This document shows positions 2,197 through 16,261 of a DNA stretch of 64,000 nucleotides, piece after piece. The stretch is from an uncultured Opitutia bacterium. GTDB taxonomy: Bacteria > Verrucomicrobiota > Verrucomicrobiia > Opitutales > UBA953. The stretch spans positions 142,875 through 206,874 of the forward strand of contig CAIOAN010000013.1 of the NCBI GenBank assembly GCA_903855995.1. Direction: 5' to 3'. The translations under genes were made by a program, and so were the position numbers. Position 1 is the first letter of the stretch, and every line of letters begins with the position of its first letter. The notes beneath the pieces are model-generated. The model did not search any database, was not told the origin of the DNA, and saw only the letters and a list, made by a program, of their open reading frames with translations.

Positions 2197-2940
2197 TTAC
2201 TTCGCCGACGCGTTCCAGATCTTGATATCGTCGAAGAAACCGAAGTGGCCGCCGCAATTGAGTTCGATCTTGGACTTGGTGGGATGGGCGATGCCGGAGG
2301 ACTTGAGGTAGGCGACAGGCTTGCCGTCGATGGAAGCGCGCATCTGGTCGCCGACGGTCTCGAGGACAAGGGTATACCACTTGTCGGTCTCGAGGGCGGG
2401 TGCGATGGGATAGGTGATACCGCGACCAACGAGGCGCTTGGCGCGCTCGGCCTTCATCTCGGGCTTACCTTCCATGGCACGGATCTCTTCGTTCATACCG
2501 CCGTCGCGCTGATCCAGCAGGATCACGGCGTTGGGCTTGACCTGCACGAGGCAGAGGTGGCCGTAGTGCGAGCCCTTGAAGGCGCGGTCATCGAATTCGA
2601 CGGAGAGGCTCGTGGCGCCGGCGAACTTGATCTTCACCTCGATGATGCTGTCCTTGGTAGCGACATCGCTGCCGATGACGGAGTTGTGGCCCTTGATGGC
2701 CGGCTTGCCGTCCTTGGCCGGGACGTCGAGCTTGGTGGTGTTGCCGCGCAGGGCGCCGTCCTCGATCGTGAAGGTCGGGACGACCGGACCCCAGGCCTTA
2801 CCAAGGTCGGCGCGATTAAAGTCGTCGGAGAAGAGCAAAGCGCCCTTGGCCGCGAGCGGCTCGGTGGGGACCGGAGGGAGTTTGGGGGCGTCGGCCGCGA
2901 AGGCGGTGGCGGCGAGCAGCAGCGGGAGGAGGGATTTCAT
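2197..2940 (-). CDS. Secreted DUF1080/LamG-like protein, paralog 1
   Basis: A 247-residue exported protein. An 18-residue signal peptide (MKSLLPLLLAATAFAADA) precedes a single domain that opens with LLFSDDFNRADLGKAW and ends with FGFFDDIKIWNASAK, the layout of a concanavalin-like beta-sandwich of the DUF1080 (3-keto-disaccharide hydrolase/LamG-like) group. It presumably binds or acts on glycans outside the cytoplasm; the reaction is not shown by the sequence. Start 2940 was chosen for the signal peptide; longer in-frame sequence upstream is only repeat DNA. A paralog with the same start and end motifs lies at 5168-5923, also minus strand, on the other side of the sulfatase gene. This pair of relatives bracketing a sulfatase suggests local duplication. 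Confidence 0.7.
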   Translation of the reverse strand: MKSLLPLLLAATAFAADAPKLPPVPTEPLAAKGALLFSDDFNRADLGKAWGPVVPTFTIEDGALRGNTTKLDVPAKDGKPAIKGHNSVIGSDVATKDSIIEVKIKFAGATSLSVEFDDRAFKGSHYGHLCLVQVKPNAVILLDQRDGGMNEEIRAMEGKPEMKAERAKRLVGRGITYPIAPALETDKWYTLVLETVGDQMRASIDGKPVAYLKSSGIAHPTKSKIELNCGGHFGFFDDIKIWNASAK

Positions 2941-3345
2941 GGGGAGAAGCAAAATACAGGTGCAAACGTGCAAAAGTGCAAAGGTGAATGCGCGAGTATC
3001 GAGTATAGGGAGAGGCATCGATTCGGGTGGCAGGTGGCAGCCTCAGGTGGCGGGTGGCGGGCAAGCGACGGAGACACAAGGGAGACCGGAAACCGGAGAG
3101 GCAGAACTCAAAGGGGGCAGCAGAGGGGAACCGGATAGTTGGCGGGGGCACACATCTACGGGTGACGGGTGCGGGTGCGGGATATGAAGTGCAAAGGTGC
3201 AAAAGTGAAGACAAAGGTACCCGGACCTGAACCTGTACCTGTACCTGAACACCTGAACCCGGGACCTGACGGCCGAGACCTGGGACCTGAGAAGCGGGTA
3301 TTAGCGGTTAGCGGTTGGGAACACAGGGCGGTGGGCTAAGGGTTA
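2941..3345. repeat. Intergenic repeat mosaic between DUF1080-like gene and sulfatase
   Basis: Contains TGCAAA repeats (about 2957-2986), two GAGTATN heptads (2994-3007), a GGTGGC block (about 3027-3063), a region like 240-350 (3063-3175), a run of ACCTG units (about 3217-3290; hexamers such as CCTGTA alternate) and a TTAGCGGTTAGCGG unit near 3300. No coding potential is seen. Confidence 0.7.
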
Positions 3346-3377: not shown

Positions 3378-4796
3378 ATGCGGATGTCTGCCCTGCTCTC
3401 CCTCCTGCTTTGGTGCCTTGGCGCGAACGCCGCCGACAAGCCGAACATCCTGTTCCTGATCGCCGACCAGCACATGGTCGACGCGCTGAGCTGTGCGGGG
3501 AATCCGTACGTGAAGACGCCTAACCTGGATCGCCTGGCCGCGCGCGGCATGCGTTTCACGCGTTCCTACGTCGCCTACCCTCTCTGCGTTCCTTCGCGCG
3601 CCAGCTTGTTCTCATCGCGCATGCCGCATGAGCTCGGCATCTACGGCAACACGCTCGGCACCGATCTCGCGGACAAGAAAGTCCCGACGATGGGGGAACT
3701 CATGCGCACCGGAGGCTATGAGACGGCCTATGCCGGCAAGTGGCATGTCCACGAAGCCTTCCCCGCCTACGCGCCAAAGAAGAAGACCATGCCAGGCTTC
3801 GATGTCCTGCCGGCGACGGGCGGCAAGGACCCGCGCAAGGGCGACAAGAAGACCGAACAAAAAGGACCGCAATGCGACCCCTTCACAGCGGAAGCGGGTA
3901 TCAAGTTTCTCGGCGATAAGCACGAGAAGCCGTTCCTGCTGACGGTCTCGCTGCTCAACCCGCATGATATCTGCGAGTTCCCGACCTTCGATGGCTTCAA
4001 GACCATGGCTCCGCAGGACGAAACTCAACTGCCCCCGCTGCGTCCGAACTTCAAAGACACCGACAAGCTACCTTCGACACTGAACGACCCTAAGGCCAAT
4101 CGCGGCTCTTGGGGCTACGGAAAGTGGCAGGACCTGCGGTGGCGCCAATACCAGTGGGTCTATTACCGGCTCGTCGAATCGACCGACAAGCTGATCGGCG
4201 ATGTCCTGAACGCTCTCGAGAAATCGCCTTACAAGGATAACACCATCGTCGTCTATACGTCTGACCACGGCGAAATGCTGGGGTCGCATCGCATGATCTC
4301 AAAGGAGAAGCTCTACGAGGAATCCGTGACCGTGCCGCTCATCATCGCTCCACCCGGCCAAGCCGGCAGTGTGGATAAGACCCACAACGTCATCGGTATG
4401 GACCTCATGCCGACCTTCCTGGATTACGCCGGCGTCGCCGCTCCGGCATCGCTTCGCGGCAAGAGCCTGCGTCCGCTCGTCGAAGGCAAGCCGTTCGCCG
4501 AAAGAGACTACGTCGCGGCGGAGTCGTTCGACCCCGAAGCCCGCCTGATCCGGACCTCCCGTTATAAATATGTCCGCTATGCGCTCGGCGAGAACCGCGA
4601 GCAGCTGTTCGACCTCGAGAACGACCCGCATGAGCTGAAGAACCTCATAGCGGATGCCAGCCTAACGAAAGAGATCGAACGTCACCGCGGCTTTTTGGCC
4701 GAATGGATGAAGCTCACCCACGACCTCGAAGAAGGCAAAGGCACCGAGCTGCTTGCCAAGATCAAGGCGAGGGAGGGAGATGCGGACGGGAAGTGA
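3378..4796 (+). CDS. Secreted sulfatase (formylglycine type, S1 family)
   Basis: A 472-residue exported sulfatase that would hydrolyse sulfate esters, probably on a polysaccharide or its oligosaccharides. A signal peptide ends at ANAA (residue 19). The first metal-binding strand is NILFLIADQH. The formylglycine signature CVPSR has Cys70, so the enzyme needs a maturation factor that is not in the window. A late SDHGEMLG motif supplies further metal ligands. Length is normal for choline-sulfatase-like or other S1 members; the substrate is not determinable. ATG 3378 and ATG 3384 are both possible starts. It stands alone between two minus-strand DUF1080-like genes and has the conserved upstream box at 3346-3377. 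Confidence 0.9.
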   Translation: MRMSALLSLLLWCLGANAADKPNILFLIADQHMVDALSCAGNPYVKTPNLDRLAARGMRFTRSYVAYPLCVPSRASLFSSRMPHELGIYGNTLGTDLADKKVPTMGELMRTGGYETAYAGKWHVHEAFPAYAPKKKTMPGFDVLPATGGKDPRKGDKKTEQKGPQCDPFTAEAGIKFLGDKHEKPFLLTVSLLNPHDICEFPTFDGFKTMAPQDETQLPPLRPNFKDTDKLPSTLNDPKANRGSWGYGKWQDLRWRQYQWVYYRLVESTDKLIGDVLNALEKSPYKDNTIVVYTSDHGEMLGSHRMISKEKLYEESVTVPLIIAPPGQAGSVDKTHNVIGMDLMPTFLDYAGVAAPASLRGKSLRPLVEGKPFAERDYVAAESFDPEARLIRTSRYKYVRYALGENREQLFDLENDPHELKNLIADASLTKEIERHRGFLAEWMKLTHDLEEGKGTELLAKIKAREGDADGK

Positions 4797-5083
4797 GAGG
4801 GCCGGAGAGGAGGACTGTAGGACACGAGGGCCGGAGATAGAGGCGGTGCAAAGGTGCAAATCGGAGCGGAGCTCCTGTACAAAGGTGCAAAGGTGGGAGA
4901 CAACGTTTCGGGTGGCGGCCTCAGGTGGCGGGTGGCGGGGATCATTCTCGGGTGGCTGGTAGGGCTGGCCATCCTTGGCCGGCCGCGGTCGAGCACGGAT
5001 GCTCGACCCTACCGAATGCAATCTGCTGCCACCTGCCACCCGGGGCTGCCACCCGCCACCTGAAACGATGGTATCGGTAGGCA
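4797..5083. repeat. Intergenic repeat mosaic with an inverted REP pair
   Basis: After the sulfatase stop come a GGGCCGGAG block, TGCAAA repeats (about 4849-4891) and a GGTGGC block (about 4909-4940). Then come the inverted REP pair at 4958-5013, a GATGCAAT-like linker and an inverted GGTGGC block (about 5029-5062) that belongs to the convergent gene. No gene is seen. Confidence 0.75.
4958..5013. repeat. Head-to-head REP pair (BIME-like)
   Basis: GGTAGGG with a GGCTGGCC...GGCCGGCC-type stem (4958-4984) faces a copy with stem GGTCGAGCA/TGCTCGACC and tail CTACC (4987-5013). The two stems are unrelated in sequence while the GTAG heads are identical. Confidence 0.75.
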
Positions 5084-5167: not shown

Positions 5168-5923
5168 TTACTTCGCGGAGGCGTTATAGATTTTAAGATC
5201 GTCGAAGAGACCGCTCTGGCCGGCGACGCCGAATTCGTAGCGGGTCTTGGTGGCGTGGGCGATGCCGGAGGACTTGAGGTAACCGACGGCCTTGCCGTCG
5301 AGGACGACGCGGATCTGATCGTCGACGATTTCGACGACGAGGGTCTGCCATTCGCCGACCTTGACGTCAGCGGGGAAGGTGGCGGAGCGACCAACGAGGA
5401 GCTTGGCGACTTCAGCCTTCTTGGCCGGGTCGTTCTTCATTTCGTAGATGTCGTTGCGCATACCGCCGTCCTTTTCGTCGATGATCTGGACGGAGCCCTT
5501 CTTGGTCTTGGCGTCATAACGGACCTGGGCGCGACAGATGTGGCCGTAGTGGCAACCGGTGTATTTACGGTCGTCGAGTTCGACGTCGACCATCGAGGCG
5601 CCGTCGAGCTTGATGCGGACTTCCACGACGGAGTCCTTGTTCGGGACTTCGAGGCCATAGACGGCGGCGTGGGCGGTGATGACTCCCTTGCCATCCTTGG
5701 TCGGCTCGTTCTTCACGCGGGTCTGTGTGCCGACGAGGGCGCCATCGGCGACCTTAAAGGTATCGACCACGCGAACCCAGCGCTTGTCTGGGGTGCCGGA
5801 GAAATCATCGGCGAAGAGCAGTTCGCCCTTCTTGGCGATGGAGTCGGCGGGAATCGCCGGGAGCTTGGGAGCGTCGGCCGCGAAAACGGTGGCGACCAGG
5901 AGGAGGGGGAGGAGGGAGCGCAT
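5168..5923 (-). CDS. Secreted DUF1080/LamG-like protein, paralog 2
   Basis: A 251-residue exported protein with signal peptide MRSLLPLLLVATVFAADA. It has the same domain plan as the gene at 2197-2940: an opening ELLFADDFSGTPDKRW, a central SVQIIDEKDGGMRNDIYEMK and a closing GLFDDLKIYNASAK. It is probably a beta-sandwich glycan-acting or glycan-binding protein. Start 5923 was chosen because the signal peptide begins there; the in-frame upstream part is translated repeat. It is convergent with the sulfatase at 3378-4796. The two paralogs share their signal peptides almost exactly, pointing to a fairly recent duplication, but they differ through the middle. Confidence 0.7.
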   Translation of the reverse strand: MRSLLPLLLVATVFAADAPKLPAIPADSIAKKGELLFADDFSGTPDKRWVRVVDTFKVADGALVGTQTRVKNEPTKDGKGVITAHAAVYGLEVPNKDSVVEVRIKLDGASMVDVELDDRKYTGCHYGHICRAQVRYDAKTKKGSVQIIDEKDGGMRNDIYEMKNDPAKKAEVAKLLVGRSATFPADVKVGEWQTLVVEIVDDQIRVVLDGKAVGYLKSSGIAHATKTRYEFGVAGQSGLFDDLKIYNASAK

Positions 5924-6308
5924 GGGAGGGATGGGGGAACTGCTGGCATGGTGAACTGCTGCGAAGCAGATACACAAACTCAAAGAGGAACGGGGAGAGC
6001 TTCGGGTGGCGGGTGGCGGCCTCAGGTGGCGGGTGGCGGGGATCATTCTCGGGTGGCAGGTGGCCGGCCGCGGTCGAGCACGGATACTCGACCCTACCCA
6101 AGACAGCGGATGCGATGTCATCGCATCCCTACCCGATGCAATCTGCTGCCACCTGCCACCTAAGAATGAATAGGACAGTACGTGGTCCTGTCCCTACCTC
6201 GGGACTGCTTCGCAGCCTGCCAGCCTGCCAGCAGATCCCCCACGCGAAGCGTCACCGAACCTTTGGCTCGCCTAGGGCTAGGCCGAGCCCTACCCCTTCC
6301 CCTCTCCG
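5924..6308. repeat. Intergenic repeat mosaic upstream of tgt
   Basis: Holds an AACTGCTGGCATGGTGAACT unit (5938-5970, related to 49327-49358), GGTGGC blocks (6003-6060) and four REP-like palindromes with CTACC tails: 6072-6098, 6108-6133, 6173-6198 and about 6265-6294. Three stems are unrelated to each other. Any tgt promoter must lie within or between these repeats. No gene is seen. Confidence 0.75.
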
Positions 6309-8351
6309 ATGTCCACCAGCCGGCTCAATTTAAAACTCGAGGCGACAGCCACTGGCTCGCGGGCACGGGCTGGCACGTTCCGCACGCTGCATAACGAGGT
6401 GAAGACGCCGCTGTTCATGCCCGTGGGTACCCAGGCGACGGTCAAGGCGCAGACGTTCGACACCCTGCTCGATTCCGGCTCCCAGATCCTGCTGGCGAAC
6501 ACCTACCACCTGCTCCTGCGTCCGGGCCCTGAGGTCTTCAAGAGCTTCGGCGGCATTCATAAATTTACGGGCTGGGAGAAATCGTTCCTCACCGATTCCG
6601 GCGGCTTCCAGATCTTCTCGCTCCCGCATGCCCGTAATATGAAGGAAGAAGGCGCCGAGTTCCGCAGCTACGTCGACGGCGCGATCCACCTGCTCAGCCC
6701 CGAGACCAGTATCGCGACGCAGGTCGCCATCGGCAGCGATATCATGATGGTGCTCGACCAGTGCATCCCTTCGACCGCCGACCGGGCCACCGCCAAGGAA
6801 GCACTCGAGATCACGCACCGCTGGGCCATCCGCAGCCTCAAGGCCCGTGGCGATTCGCCCCAGTCCATGTTCGCAATCGTTCAGGGCGCCCTCTACCCCG
6901 ACCTCCGTAAGATCAGCGCCGACGGCCTGACGCAGCTGCCCTTCGACGGTTTCGCCATCGGCGGCCTTGCGGTCGGCGAAGGCAAGGCCCAGCGCGAAGA
7001 CACGTGCGAGATTGCCGCAGCCATGCTCCCGGCCGACAAGCCGCGCTATCTGATGGGCGTCGGCACCCCGCTCGACCTCCTCGAAGCTGTCCACCGTGGC
7101 GTCGACATGTTCGACTGCATCATCCCGAACAAAGTCGCCCAGTTCGGCACCGCCTACACCTCCCGCGGCATCCTACAGCTGCGTCGCTCGATTTATAAGT
7201 TCTCCGAAGAGAAGATCGACGCCCTGTGCAAGTGTCCCGTCTGCGCCAAGTATTCGCGCGGCTACCTGCACCACCTCACCAAGACCCAGGAGCCGCTCGG
7301 CTGGACGCTTCTTGGCCAGCACAACATCTTCTTCTATCACCAGATGATGCGGGAGATCCGCCAGAGCATCCTCGAAGATTCGTTCCTGGCGTATTACCAC
7401 GACCGCCGGCAAGTCCTGCAGGTCGAGGACATGGACAATCCCGCCGTCCCGCCCAAAGTCGGCAAAGAACGCCGCCCGCGCACGCTCGGTGACTACGAGA
7501 TCCATATCCACGAGATCGAGGGCTTCGCGAACATCCGCCAGATCTCGTCCGGCGAGATCATGCACCTCCGTCGGGCGCCCATGGACGAAGCCAAGGCGCT
7601 ATACATCGACCAGGCCAAGCTCTCTGAGCGCCTGAAGCTGCCCGAAGGCCAGACCCCCGAGACCGCCGCTCCGATCGTCATCTGGGATCTCGGACTCGGC
7701 GCTGCCGCCAACGCCATGGCGTCGATCCTTTGTTACGAGGCTGAAGCCGCCAAGGGCCCCGTGCGTAATATGAAGGTCATCAGCTTTGAGAACGACATGG
7801 ACTCGCTCAAGCTGGCCATGACGCACAAGAACCGCTTCGAGTACCTGCGTCACTCAGGTCCCGACGCCGTGCTTGCCCGCGGCACTTGGCAGTCGCGCCA
7901 GTATCCCGGCCTCAGCTGGGACCTGCATGTCGGCGACTTCTGGCAGCTCGCGTCCAAGGTCTCCGACGCACCCGACATCATCTACTACGACTTCTTCTCG
8001 CAGAAGACCAATCCCGACGCCTGGGAACTCGAGTCGTTTGATAAGCTCTTCTCATACTGCGACCCCAAGAAGTCCGCGCAGCTCTTCACCTACTGCTCGT
8101 CGACGACCATGCGCGTCGCGTTGCTGAACTCAGGATTCTATGTGGCGAACGGCGAGGGTACCGGCTCGAAGAAAGAGACCATCGTCGCGCTCAGCCCGGG
8201 CTTCCCGAAGCCCTGCCCCTTCCCCTTGATCGGCGAGGAATGGCTGGATCGCTGGCGTCGCTCGACCAAGAAATTCCCTGACGGACTTACGCCCGAGCAG
8301 CAGGCGGCCGTGGAGAAGCGGATTGAGGGGCACCCTCAGTTTTCGGCCTGA
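6309..8351 (+). CDS. tgt: tRNA-guanine transglycosylase fused to an MnmC-like methyltransferase domain
   Basis: A 680-residue cytoplasmic tRNA-modifying protein. Residues 1 to about 380 are bacterial TGT, which exchanges guanine-34 for preQ1 in queuosine tRNAs. LTDSGGFQ carries the general-base Asp, MFDCIIP has the nucleophile Asp269, and the zinc site is Cys307, Cys309, Cys312 and His338. The segment after the nucleophile reads NKVAQFGTAYT instead of the usual TRNARNG-type sequence. Residues from about 445 hold a Rossmann-type methyltransferase with WDLGLGAAAN (Asp460) and YYDFFSQKTNPDAW, resembling the DUF752 domain of MnmC, which completes mnm5 at U34. The FAD half of MnmC is absent. The usual tgt length is about 375-400 residues, so the extra roughly 290 residues are a true extension in one frame. 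It has no queuosine neighbours. Confidence 0.88.
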   Translation: MSTSRLNLKLEATATGSRARAGTFRTLHNEVKTPLFMPVGTQATVKAQTFDTLLDSGSQILLANTYHLLLRPGPEVFKSFGGIHKFTGWEKSFLTDSGGFQIFSLPHARNMKEEGAEFRSYVDGAIHLLSPETSIATQVAIGSDIMMVLDQCIPSTADRATAKEALEITHRWAIRSLKARGDSPQSMFAIVQGALYPDLRKISADGLTQLPFDGFAIGGLAVGEGKAQREDTCEIAAAMLPADKPRYLMGVGTPLDLLEAVHRGVDMFDCIIPNKVAQFGTAYTSRGILQLRRSIYKFSEEKIDALCKCPVCAKYSRGYLHHLTKTQEPLGWTLLGQHNIFFYHQMMREIRQSILEDSFLAYYHDRRQVLQVEDMDNPAVPPKVGKERRPRTLGDYEIHIHEIEGFANIRQISSGEIMHLRRAPMDEAKALYIDQAKLSERLKLPEGQTPETAAPIVIWDLGLGAAANAMASILCYEAEAAKGPVRNMKVISFENDMDSLKLAMTHKNRFEYLRHSGPDAVLARGTWQSRQYPGLSWDLHVGDFWQLASKVSDAPDIIYYDFFSQKTNPDAWELESFDKLFSYCDPKKSAQLFTYCSSTTMRVALLNSGFYVANGEGTGSKKETIVALSPGFPKPCPFPLIGEEWLDRWRRSTKKFPDGLTPEQQAAVEKRIEGHPQFSA

Positions 8352-9000
8352 GTATCGAGTATGGAGTATTGAGTATAGGGAGATGACACCGTTTCGGGTG
8401 GCAGGTGGCGGCCCCAGGTGACGGGATATACAGTGCAAAGGTGCAAATCGGAGCGGAGCTCCTGTGCAAAGGTGTAAAAGTGAATGTGCTAGTATCGAGT
8501 ATGGAGTATTGAGTATAGGGAGAGGCAACGCCTCAGGTGGCGGGTGGCGGGAGGAGGTAGGGGCGGACCGGATGATTGGCTGGGGCATAACTCGAGGACA
8601 CGAGGGCCGGAGGACACGAGGGCCAGAGGACCTGGCACCCAGGCTCCGGTGGCTGAAGGCTGAACGGCTGACACCCGAAAGGCTGACCACCGTGGCCGTC
8701 ACCCGTCACCTTAGCATTGGGTATTAGCGGTTAGCGGCTGGGAACGCAGAGAGCGGCGGCCGGCCAAGGATGGCCAGCCCTACCCGATGCAGAATGAAGA
8801 ACTCAAAGGGAGACCGGGGGACCTGATGATTGGCGGGGTTATCCATTCAGTCCTCGATTCAGTCCTCCATGCAGTCATCGACTCAGGCCTCCATTCAGGA
8901 GAGGTCCTATATCGTGACGCGGTCCCGACCCTACCCAGCACGGCGCGGCTTCGCGGACGTTGTCCTGAGGCATTGTCCCCAAGCGATCAGGGCTTTCCTC
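8350..9000. repeat. Long intergenic repeat mosaic after tgt
   Basis: Four GAGTATN heptads start at the tgt stop (8350-8377). They are followed by a GGTGGC block (8394-8421), TGCAAA repeats (about 8432-8483), a second heptad set (8490-8517), another GGTGGC block (8529-8553), GAGGACACGAGGGCC units (8585-8630) and a block shared with 400-478. A REP palindrome lies at 8758-8784 and a TCAGTCCTC-type array at about 8841-8904. No gene is seen. Confidence 0.75.
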
Positions 9001-15880: not shown

Positions 15881-16261
15881 GCGAAGCTCAAGCGCGAGGG
15901 GGCACGTGAGCAAGGTGAGCGCGGCGAAGCCGCGAGGGGGCACGTGGGCAAGGTGACACGTGGACAAGGGGCGCACATGAGAGGCCCGGAGGCTCAGAGG
16001 CTCGGTTGATCAGAGGAGAGACACCGTTTCGGGTGGCGGGTGGCAGCCCCAGGTGGCGGGTGGCAGCCCTAGGTGGCGGGTGGCAGCCTTGGGTGGCGGG
16101 TGGCAGCCCCGGGGCTCGGGTGGCGGGTGGAAACCATCTTCGGGCTTTGGGTAAGATTACAGCATTCATTCCGGCCTCGGCTTCCCCGTGAGTGAAAATC
16201 CTCCCGCCACCCGCACCTGAGAGGACGCAGCCCTTCCAATCAACGACATGTTGCGGTCTGC
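15881..16261. repeat. Intergenic repeat mosaic with a 20-bp tandem array
   Basis: Order from the stop codon: two copies of the GGGGGCACGTG(G)GCAAGGTGA module (15897-15970), a GAGAGGCCCGGAGGCTCAG block (15979-16012), then four exact-length 20-bp units beginning GGTGGCGGGTGG at 16032, 16052, 16072 and 16092, with a partial unit to about 16131. The remaining bases to the next gene show nothing recognisable. Confidence 0.8.

Follow-up and report, generated by a model that had tools for sequence, protein, structure and literature searches.

One gene in the window, the 64,000-nucleotide stretch of DNA analysed here, encodes a Tgt paralogue (Tgt2) fused to a SAM methyltransferase domain resembling MnmC2. 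Comparison with ordinary Tgts indicates that Tgt2 has kept its catalytic residues and a preQ1-type base pocket and has lost both canonical arginines. We give about an even chance to the reading in which Tgt2 would exchange guanine for preQ1 and the linked methyltransferase would then give N-methyl-preQ1. More tentatively, and at somewhat below even, we propose an undescribed pathway present in several phyla, in which Tgt2 would place preQ1 outside the GUN set of tRNAs and N-methyl-preQ1 would be made beside normal queuosine. The features of the gene are listed below.

6309–8351, + strand: tgt2-methyltransferase fusion gene, 680 aa (profile matches)
6309–7424, + strand: Tgt2 domain, residues 1–372 (profile match; predicted structure aligned to Z. 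mobilis TGT)
6594–6596, + strand: D96 codon, for the catalytic residue equivalent to Asp102 of Z. mobilis, 73/73 Tgt2
6756–6764, + strand: codons of D150-Q151-C152, which correspond to D156-E157-C158 of Z. mobilis, with D and C in 73/73 Tgt2
7113–7115, + strand: D269 codon, for the nucleophile (Asp280 in Z. mobilis), 73/73 Tgt2
7128–7142, + strand: codons of N274-K275-V276-A277-Q278, in place of canonical T-R-x-A/G-R (Z. mobilis 285–289; alignment)
7227–7322, + strand: presumed zinc ligands C307, C309, C312 and H338, 73/73 Tgt2
7425–7476, + strand: interdomain linker (segment 376–389 of the model has pLDDT <50), overlapping the start of the segment folded as methyltransferase
7461–8348, + strand: MnmC2-like SAM methyltransferase domain, residues 385–680 (profile, alignment and fold; pLDDT 95)
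7554–7556, + strand: E416 codon, within the motif GE(I/V)MH; counterpart of Asp26 of E. coli MnmC in the alignment, invariant in 36 sequences
7686–7703, + strand: SAM loop D460-x-G-L-G-A465 (alignment)
7788–7790, + strand: E494 codon; counterpart of Glu101 of E. coli MnmC (SAM ribose) in the alignment
7989–7991, + strand: D561 codon; counterpart of Asp178 of E. coli MnmC (proposed base and SAM contact) in the alignment, invariant in 36 sequences

From the ATG at 6309 to the stop at 8351 on the + strand, a single uninterrupted frame spans the whole 680 codons. The Pfam TGT family matches residues 18–367 (E = 4.5e-137), and TIGR00430 scores 437.2 bits, above its cut-off of 306.75. Methyltransf_30 (PF05430) matches residues 535–628 (E = 8e-14; 52 bits, above the cut-off of 22), and the NCBIfam MnmC2 model NF033855 matches residues 416–628 (E = 4e-19) with 69.3 bits, below its 136-bit cut-off. 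Pfam and NCBIfam profile searches found no FAD domain MnmC1 in the 680 residues. GC content by codon position is the same in the two halves (0.60/0.43/0.84 and 0.59/0.44/0.84), as is expected of one coding frame, so chance read-through is ruled out and the fusion frame is confirmed as real. The full model has a pLDDT of 86.5 and a pTM of 0.57, and the relative placement of the two domains is thus uncertain.

We have also observed repeats around the gene. The motif GGTGGCRGGTGGC occurs 29 times in the window (0.01 expected), often paired 20 bases apart, at intergenic sites (e.g., 3026–3058, 4924–5060, 6005–6160, 8397–8548 and 16032–16104), and longer repeated intergenic blocks containing it flank the fusion gene on both sides. 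Within 1451–2095, a small ORF (1517–2017) lying between palindromic CGGATGACCGGGCCGGTCATCC repeats resembles by eye a REP-associated Y1 transposase (MPDHLHL motif). The − strand carries two genes that are similar to each other and have signal-like starts, at 2197–3018 and 5168–6121 (DNA repeats D2 and D6), with a sulfatase-like gene at 3378–4796 between them.

The predicted Tgt half superposes on Z. mobilis TGT with Z of about 50 and rmsd 2.0 over about 365 residues, at 43–44% identity. In Z. mobilis TGT, Asp102 is catalytic and Asp280 is the nucleophile (PMC6165067). Among 73 Tgt2 sequences, the catalytic and base-pocket residues D96, D150, C152, Q192, G219, L220, V222, M249 and D269 are invariant, and E224 is present in 63, with D in the remainder. 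We take C307, C309, C312 and H338 to be the zinc ligands, from established Tgt structures. The E of the Z. mobilis D156-E157-C158 is changed to Q or V in nearly all Tgt2 sequences. The intact pocket points to preQ1 as the base, and preQ0 or another 7-deazaguanine would be compatible with it.

The segment following the nucleophile, NKVAQFGTAYT, had been predicted to be unlike that of common Tgt, and it is: both arginines of TRxxR are replaced. Position 275 (Z. mobilis R286) is R in 70 of 70 ordinary Tgts and in none of the 73 Tgt2 sequences, and position 278 (Z. mobilis R289) is R in 70 of 70 and in 3 of 73, respectively; since the tree itself defined the two groups, the counts characterise the clade and do not test it independently. 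The window fusion carries K275 and Q278, and the three Tgt2 sequences with R at 278 are the Silvanigrellales outgroup. Bacterial Tgt is held to be specific for UGU anticodon loops, and R286 and R289 of Z. mobilis presumably contact the anticodon loop, at U33 and U35 in the RNA complex. Our search of open-licence papers found none on the role of R286 and R289 in Tgt. PMC3660597 cites UGU as the minimal requirement of Tgt.

A phylogeny of 143 Tgt domains groups Tgt2 in one clade (support 0.994, the Silvanigrellales outgroup included), to which the canonical Tgts of these genomes do not belong. The genome of the window has a separate canonical Tgt (G000:C6:11124–12200), 43% identical to the Tgt half of the fusion, and one QueA. 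The fusion is thus a paralogue and not the sole Tgt of the cell. Both Tgt and QueA are present in 40 of 40 genomes examined, canonical Tgt adjoins QueA in several (e.g., M. xanthus, G392:C360), and carriers have at least one Tgt beyond the canonical one. We infer a supply of preQ1 from the presence of QueA and canonical Tgt. Some Myxococcota genomes (L065, L067, L069 and L072) carry a canonical Tgt, a Tgt2 with its methyltransferase and one or two more copies, three or four Tgts in all; at least one of the extra copies is Tgt2-like and has no adjoining methyltransferase.

Tgt entries took up the results of a structure search with the whole protein, so the methyltransferase was folded separately (pLDDT 95.2). 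Its best match is Aquifex MnmC2 (3vyw; Z 23.6, rmsd 3.2 over 240 residues); E. coli and Yersinia MnmC reach Z 19.5–22.2, with spermidine synthases behind at Z ≤17.4. The domain carries a family-specific C-terminal extension whose last residues are HPQF. Across a 36-sequence alignment, D561, E416 and the SAM loop are invariant and E494 is nearly so. In E. coli MnmC, Glu101 contacts the SAM ribose and Asp178 is the proposed base and a SAM contact (PMC3648344). It had been a concern that the C-terminal domain might lack SAM-binding residues; structural and sequence alignment find both the MnmC2 fold and these residues. A tree of 96 domains unites the Tgt2-linked methyltransferases (support 0.999) in a single clade that excludes MnmC and the fusions of MnmC2 with MnmL. 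A conserved active site of this kind would suit an amine as methyl acceptor and is not proof of it.

The fusion is found with the same junction in 25 of the 387 Verrucomicrobiota genomes sampled across the phylum, as a search suggested by the original prediction reveals, and all 25 sit in genomes with at least two Tgt matches; in three of them the methyltransferase is truncated. This recurrence, together with the profiles and the GC content by codon position, bears out the predicted joining of Tgt and an MnmC-like methyltransferase in one 680-residue frame. Named near relatives, in Spartobacteria, Chthoniobacteraceae and Opitutaceae, place the organism of the window in Verrucomicrobiota. A GTDB scan also found the fusion in Myxococcota (Anaeromyxobacter soli and Archangium MAGs), Oligoflexia, Riflebacteria, Eisenbacteria and one MAG labelled Betaproteobacteria, such MAG labels being possibly erroneous. 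The fusion of one deltaproteobacterial MAG (L084:7160–9251) is divided between two overlapping frames, owing to a frameshift or an assembly error.

The pair also occurs as separate, side-by-side ORFs in M. xanthus (L068), Nannocystis exedens (L071) and at least five further Myxococcota loci (L066, L070 and those in G396, G397 and G398). Fusion in some genomes and adjacency in others is strong evidence that the two parts act together. Across a spread of loci we found no conserved neighbour besides the methyltransferase, and gene context is shared among four close relatives only. The link is not universal, since three genomes (G394, G395 and G401) have Tgt2 and no clear Tgt2-type methyltransferase. 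No PF05430 protein was found in nine Verrucomicrobiota relatives lacking Tgt2. Searched viral contigs gave no relative of the fusion, and searched plasmids gave ordinary Tgt-length matches only, none spanning 80% of the query. Elsewhere in Verrucomicrobiota, PF05430 is not tied to Tgt2 and occurs as part of MnmC or of MnmL fusions; long PF05430 frames there were considered as Tgt fusions and rejected, as those read are MnmC or MnmL-MnmC2. The MnmL-MnmC2 fusions (L177–L200, e.g., L177:73–1977) join radical-SAM MnmL to an MnmC2-like domain in about 580–650 aa, with TIGR01212 above its cut-off in L177; they are common in other Verrucomicrobiota families and are probably a real mnm5U-forming enzyme there.

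In one branch (L017, L020, L026, L046, L047, L048 and L051), the Tgt2 half is whole and the methyltransferase is truncated; the motifs around E416 and D561 are gone in those read. Tgt2 has been kept after the decay of its partner and is thus useful without it. Position 278 is K in all seven of these sequences and in none of 56 intact pairs, the seven counting as one ancestral event. The two halves of the pair may therefore co-vary. Three genomes of this branch were searched, and MnmM is present and PF05430 absent in each.

How the pair would work can be laid out as follows. Tgt installs preQ1, a base with an aminomethyl group on C7. From the observed architecture, conservation, linkage and co-presence with the queuosine genes, we infer which base is inserted, into which tRNA, what accepts the methyl group and in what sequence the steps run. 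In the simplest such scheme, Tgt2 would put preQ1 in the place of a guanine, most likely G34, of a tRNA that is not a substrate of canonical Tgt and putatively lies outside the usual GUN set; the sole tRNA in the window, a tRNA-Pro (CGG), is uninformative on this target. The methyltransferase would then methylate the aminomethyl arm at its primary amine, with SAM as the donor, to form N-methyl-preQ1 (7-methylaminomethyl-7-deazaguanosine), and this methylation could also stop QueA from converting the base to Q. This step would be the same chemistry as that of MnmC2 on nm5U, from aminomethyl to methylaminomethyl; in tRNA, the aminomethyl group on which the MnmC2 active site acts is that of a wobble base (PMC3648344).

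A 2020 review lists preQ0, preQ1, oQ, Q with its sugar and glutamyl forms, and archaeosine as the known 7-deazaguanine nucleosides of tRNA (PMC7694415), and N-methyl-preQ1 is missing from its Q and G+ nucleosides. We found no methylated preQ1 in the open-licence literature, a scope that leaves its novelty not proven, and only general papers on Tgt combined with MnmC. If the proposal is true, N-methyl-preQ1 would be a methylaminomethyl purine analogue that mirrors the mnm5U of the pyrimidine side. The intact pocket, the changed motif after the nucleophile and the dedicated methyltransferase would together predict that both the nucleoside and the target tRNA are new, and the prediction is testable in Myxococcus xanthus, as the pair there consists of two neighbouring genes. 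Automatic annotation calls these proteins plain Tgt.

A different account is that two independent wobble enzymes have been joined for co-expression only, the Tgt half making preQ1/Q34 in GUN tRNAs and the methyltransferase converting nm5U34 to mnm5U34. Both domain families do act at position 34, MnmE is present in most carriers, the window genome included, most carriers have no other known mnm5U methyltransferase, and the MnmM of the branch with a decayed methyltransferase is a possible replacement. Nevertheless, every carrier checked has a canonical Tgt, the arginine pair has been lost in the Tgt2 clade, and the NF033855 score is half of the cut-off, where a real MnmC (L143) obtains 231 bits. 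A check for separate mnmC or mnmEG genes, called for at the outset, found MnmE, MnmG and also MnmM in the window genome, and a family search found no second PF05430 protein there; another carrier (G390) has a complete MnmC of 729 bits. In four carriers (G391, G396, G397 and G398; one isolate and three MAGs) neither MnmE nor MnmG was found, apart from partial matches to the GTPase region of MnmE or a small portion of MnmG, so there is no known source of nm5U in them. On account of these three observations (MnmM beside the fusion, the complete MnmC, and the four carriers), the methyltransferase is probably not an ordinary nm5U methyltransferase; we regard two independent enzymes as unlikely, and the predicted bifunctional wobble enzyme, making Q34 and mnm5U with one chain, is disfavoured. 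The accompanying suggestion of a further-modified deazaguanine fits much better, as a reading drawn from genomes only.

Tgt2 and the methyltransferase could also share a pathway with other chemistry: the free base might be methylated before insertion, preQ0 or another deazaguanine might be used, or the methyl might go elsewhere on the nucleoside or tRNA. Genomic linkage and conservation serve such schemes equally well, and the replacement of E157 by Q or V may change the base accepted; the MnmC2 active site, however, targets an aminomethyl group of the wobble base in tRNA (PMC3648344), and preQ1 has such a group, so that we consider them distinctly unlikely. That the Tgt2 half is a docking module, presenting the anticodon loop to the methyltransferase without base exchange, would have a precedent in QTRT2, a non-catalytic Tgt subunit (PMC6165067), and would agree with the altered motif after the nucleophile. 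Yet no catalytic residue varies among the 73 divergent members, unlike in a decayed enzyme, and the branch that loses the methyltransferase keeps the Tgt2 half, the opposite of what docking predicts; this is very improbable. Least credible of all, and hardly to be entertained, is the idea that this is an ordinary, redundant Tgt whose tail is vestigial or unrelated: TIGR00430 does score above its cut-off, but the active-site residues of the tail are invariant over several phyla, the pair occurs as two genes too, and the Tgt half has residues specific to the family.

Compared with known systems, Tgt2 shares with bacterial Tgt (TIGR00430, PF01702; Z. mobilis TGT) the fold, catalytic aspartates, base pocket and zinc site, and is about 43% identical both to the canonical Tgt of the window genome and to the Z. 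mobilis enzyme. It differs in the loss of both TRxxR arginines and in the family-specific Y121, T156, R229 and R293, and the fusion differs in its added methyltransferase domain and its coexistence with a canonical Tgt. The methyltransferase resembles MnmC2/DUF752 (the E. coli MnmC N-terminal domain and Aquifex 3vyw) in fold, SAM loop and the matches to Glu101, Asp178 and the Asp26 position, whereas it forms its own clade, falls below the NF033855 cut-off, has an additional C-terminal extension, is partnered by Tgt2 and not by MnmC1 or MnmL, and is found in genomes without detectable MnmE/MnmG. MnmL (YtqA) is a radical-SAM tRNA modification protein (NCBIfam), to which the MnmC2 domain is fused in other Verrucomicrobiota. 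MnmM (YtqB), which converts nm5s2U to mnm5s2U at the wobble position (PMC9976899), belongs to a different methyltransferase family, and the window genome encodes MnmM alongside the fusion. Human QTRT1/QTRT2 likewise combines Tgt paralogues, one catalytic and one non-catalytic, in one system, whereas Tgt2 keeps every catalytic residue and has a methyltransferase of its own.
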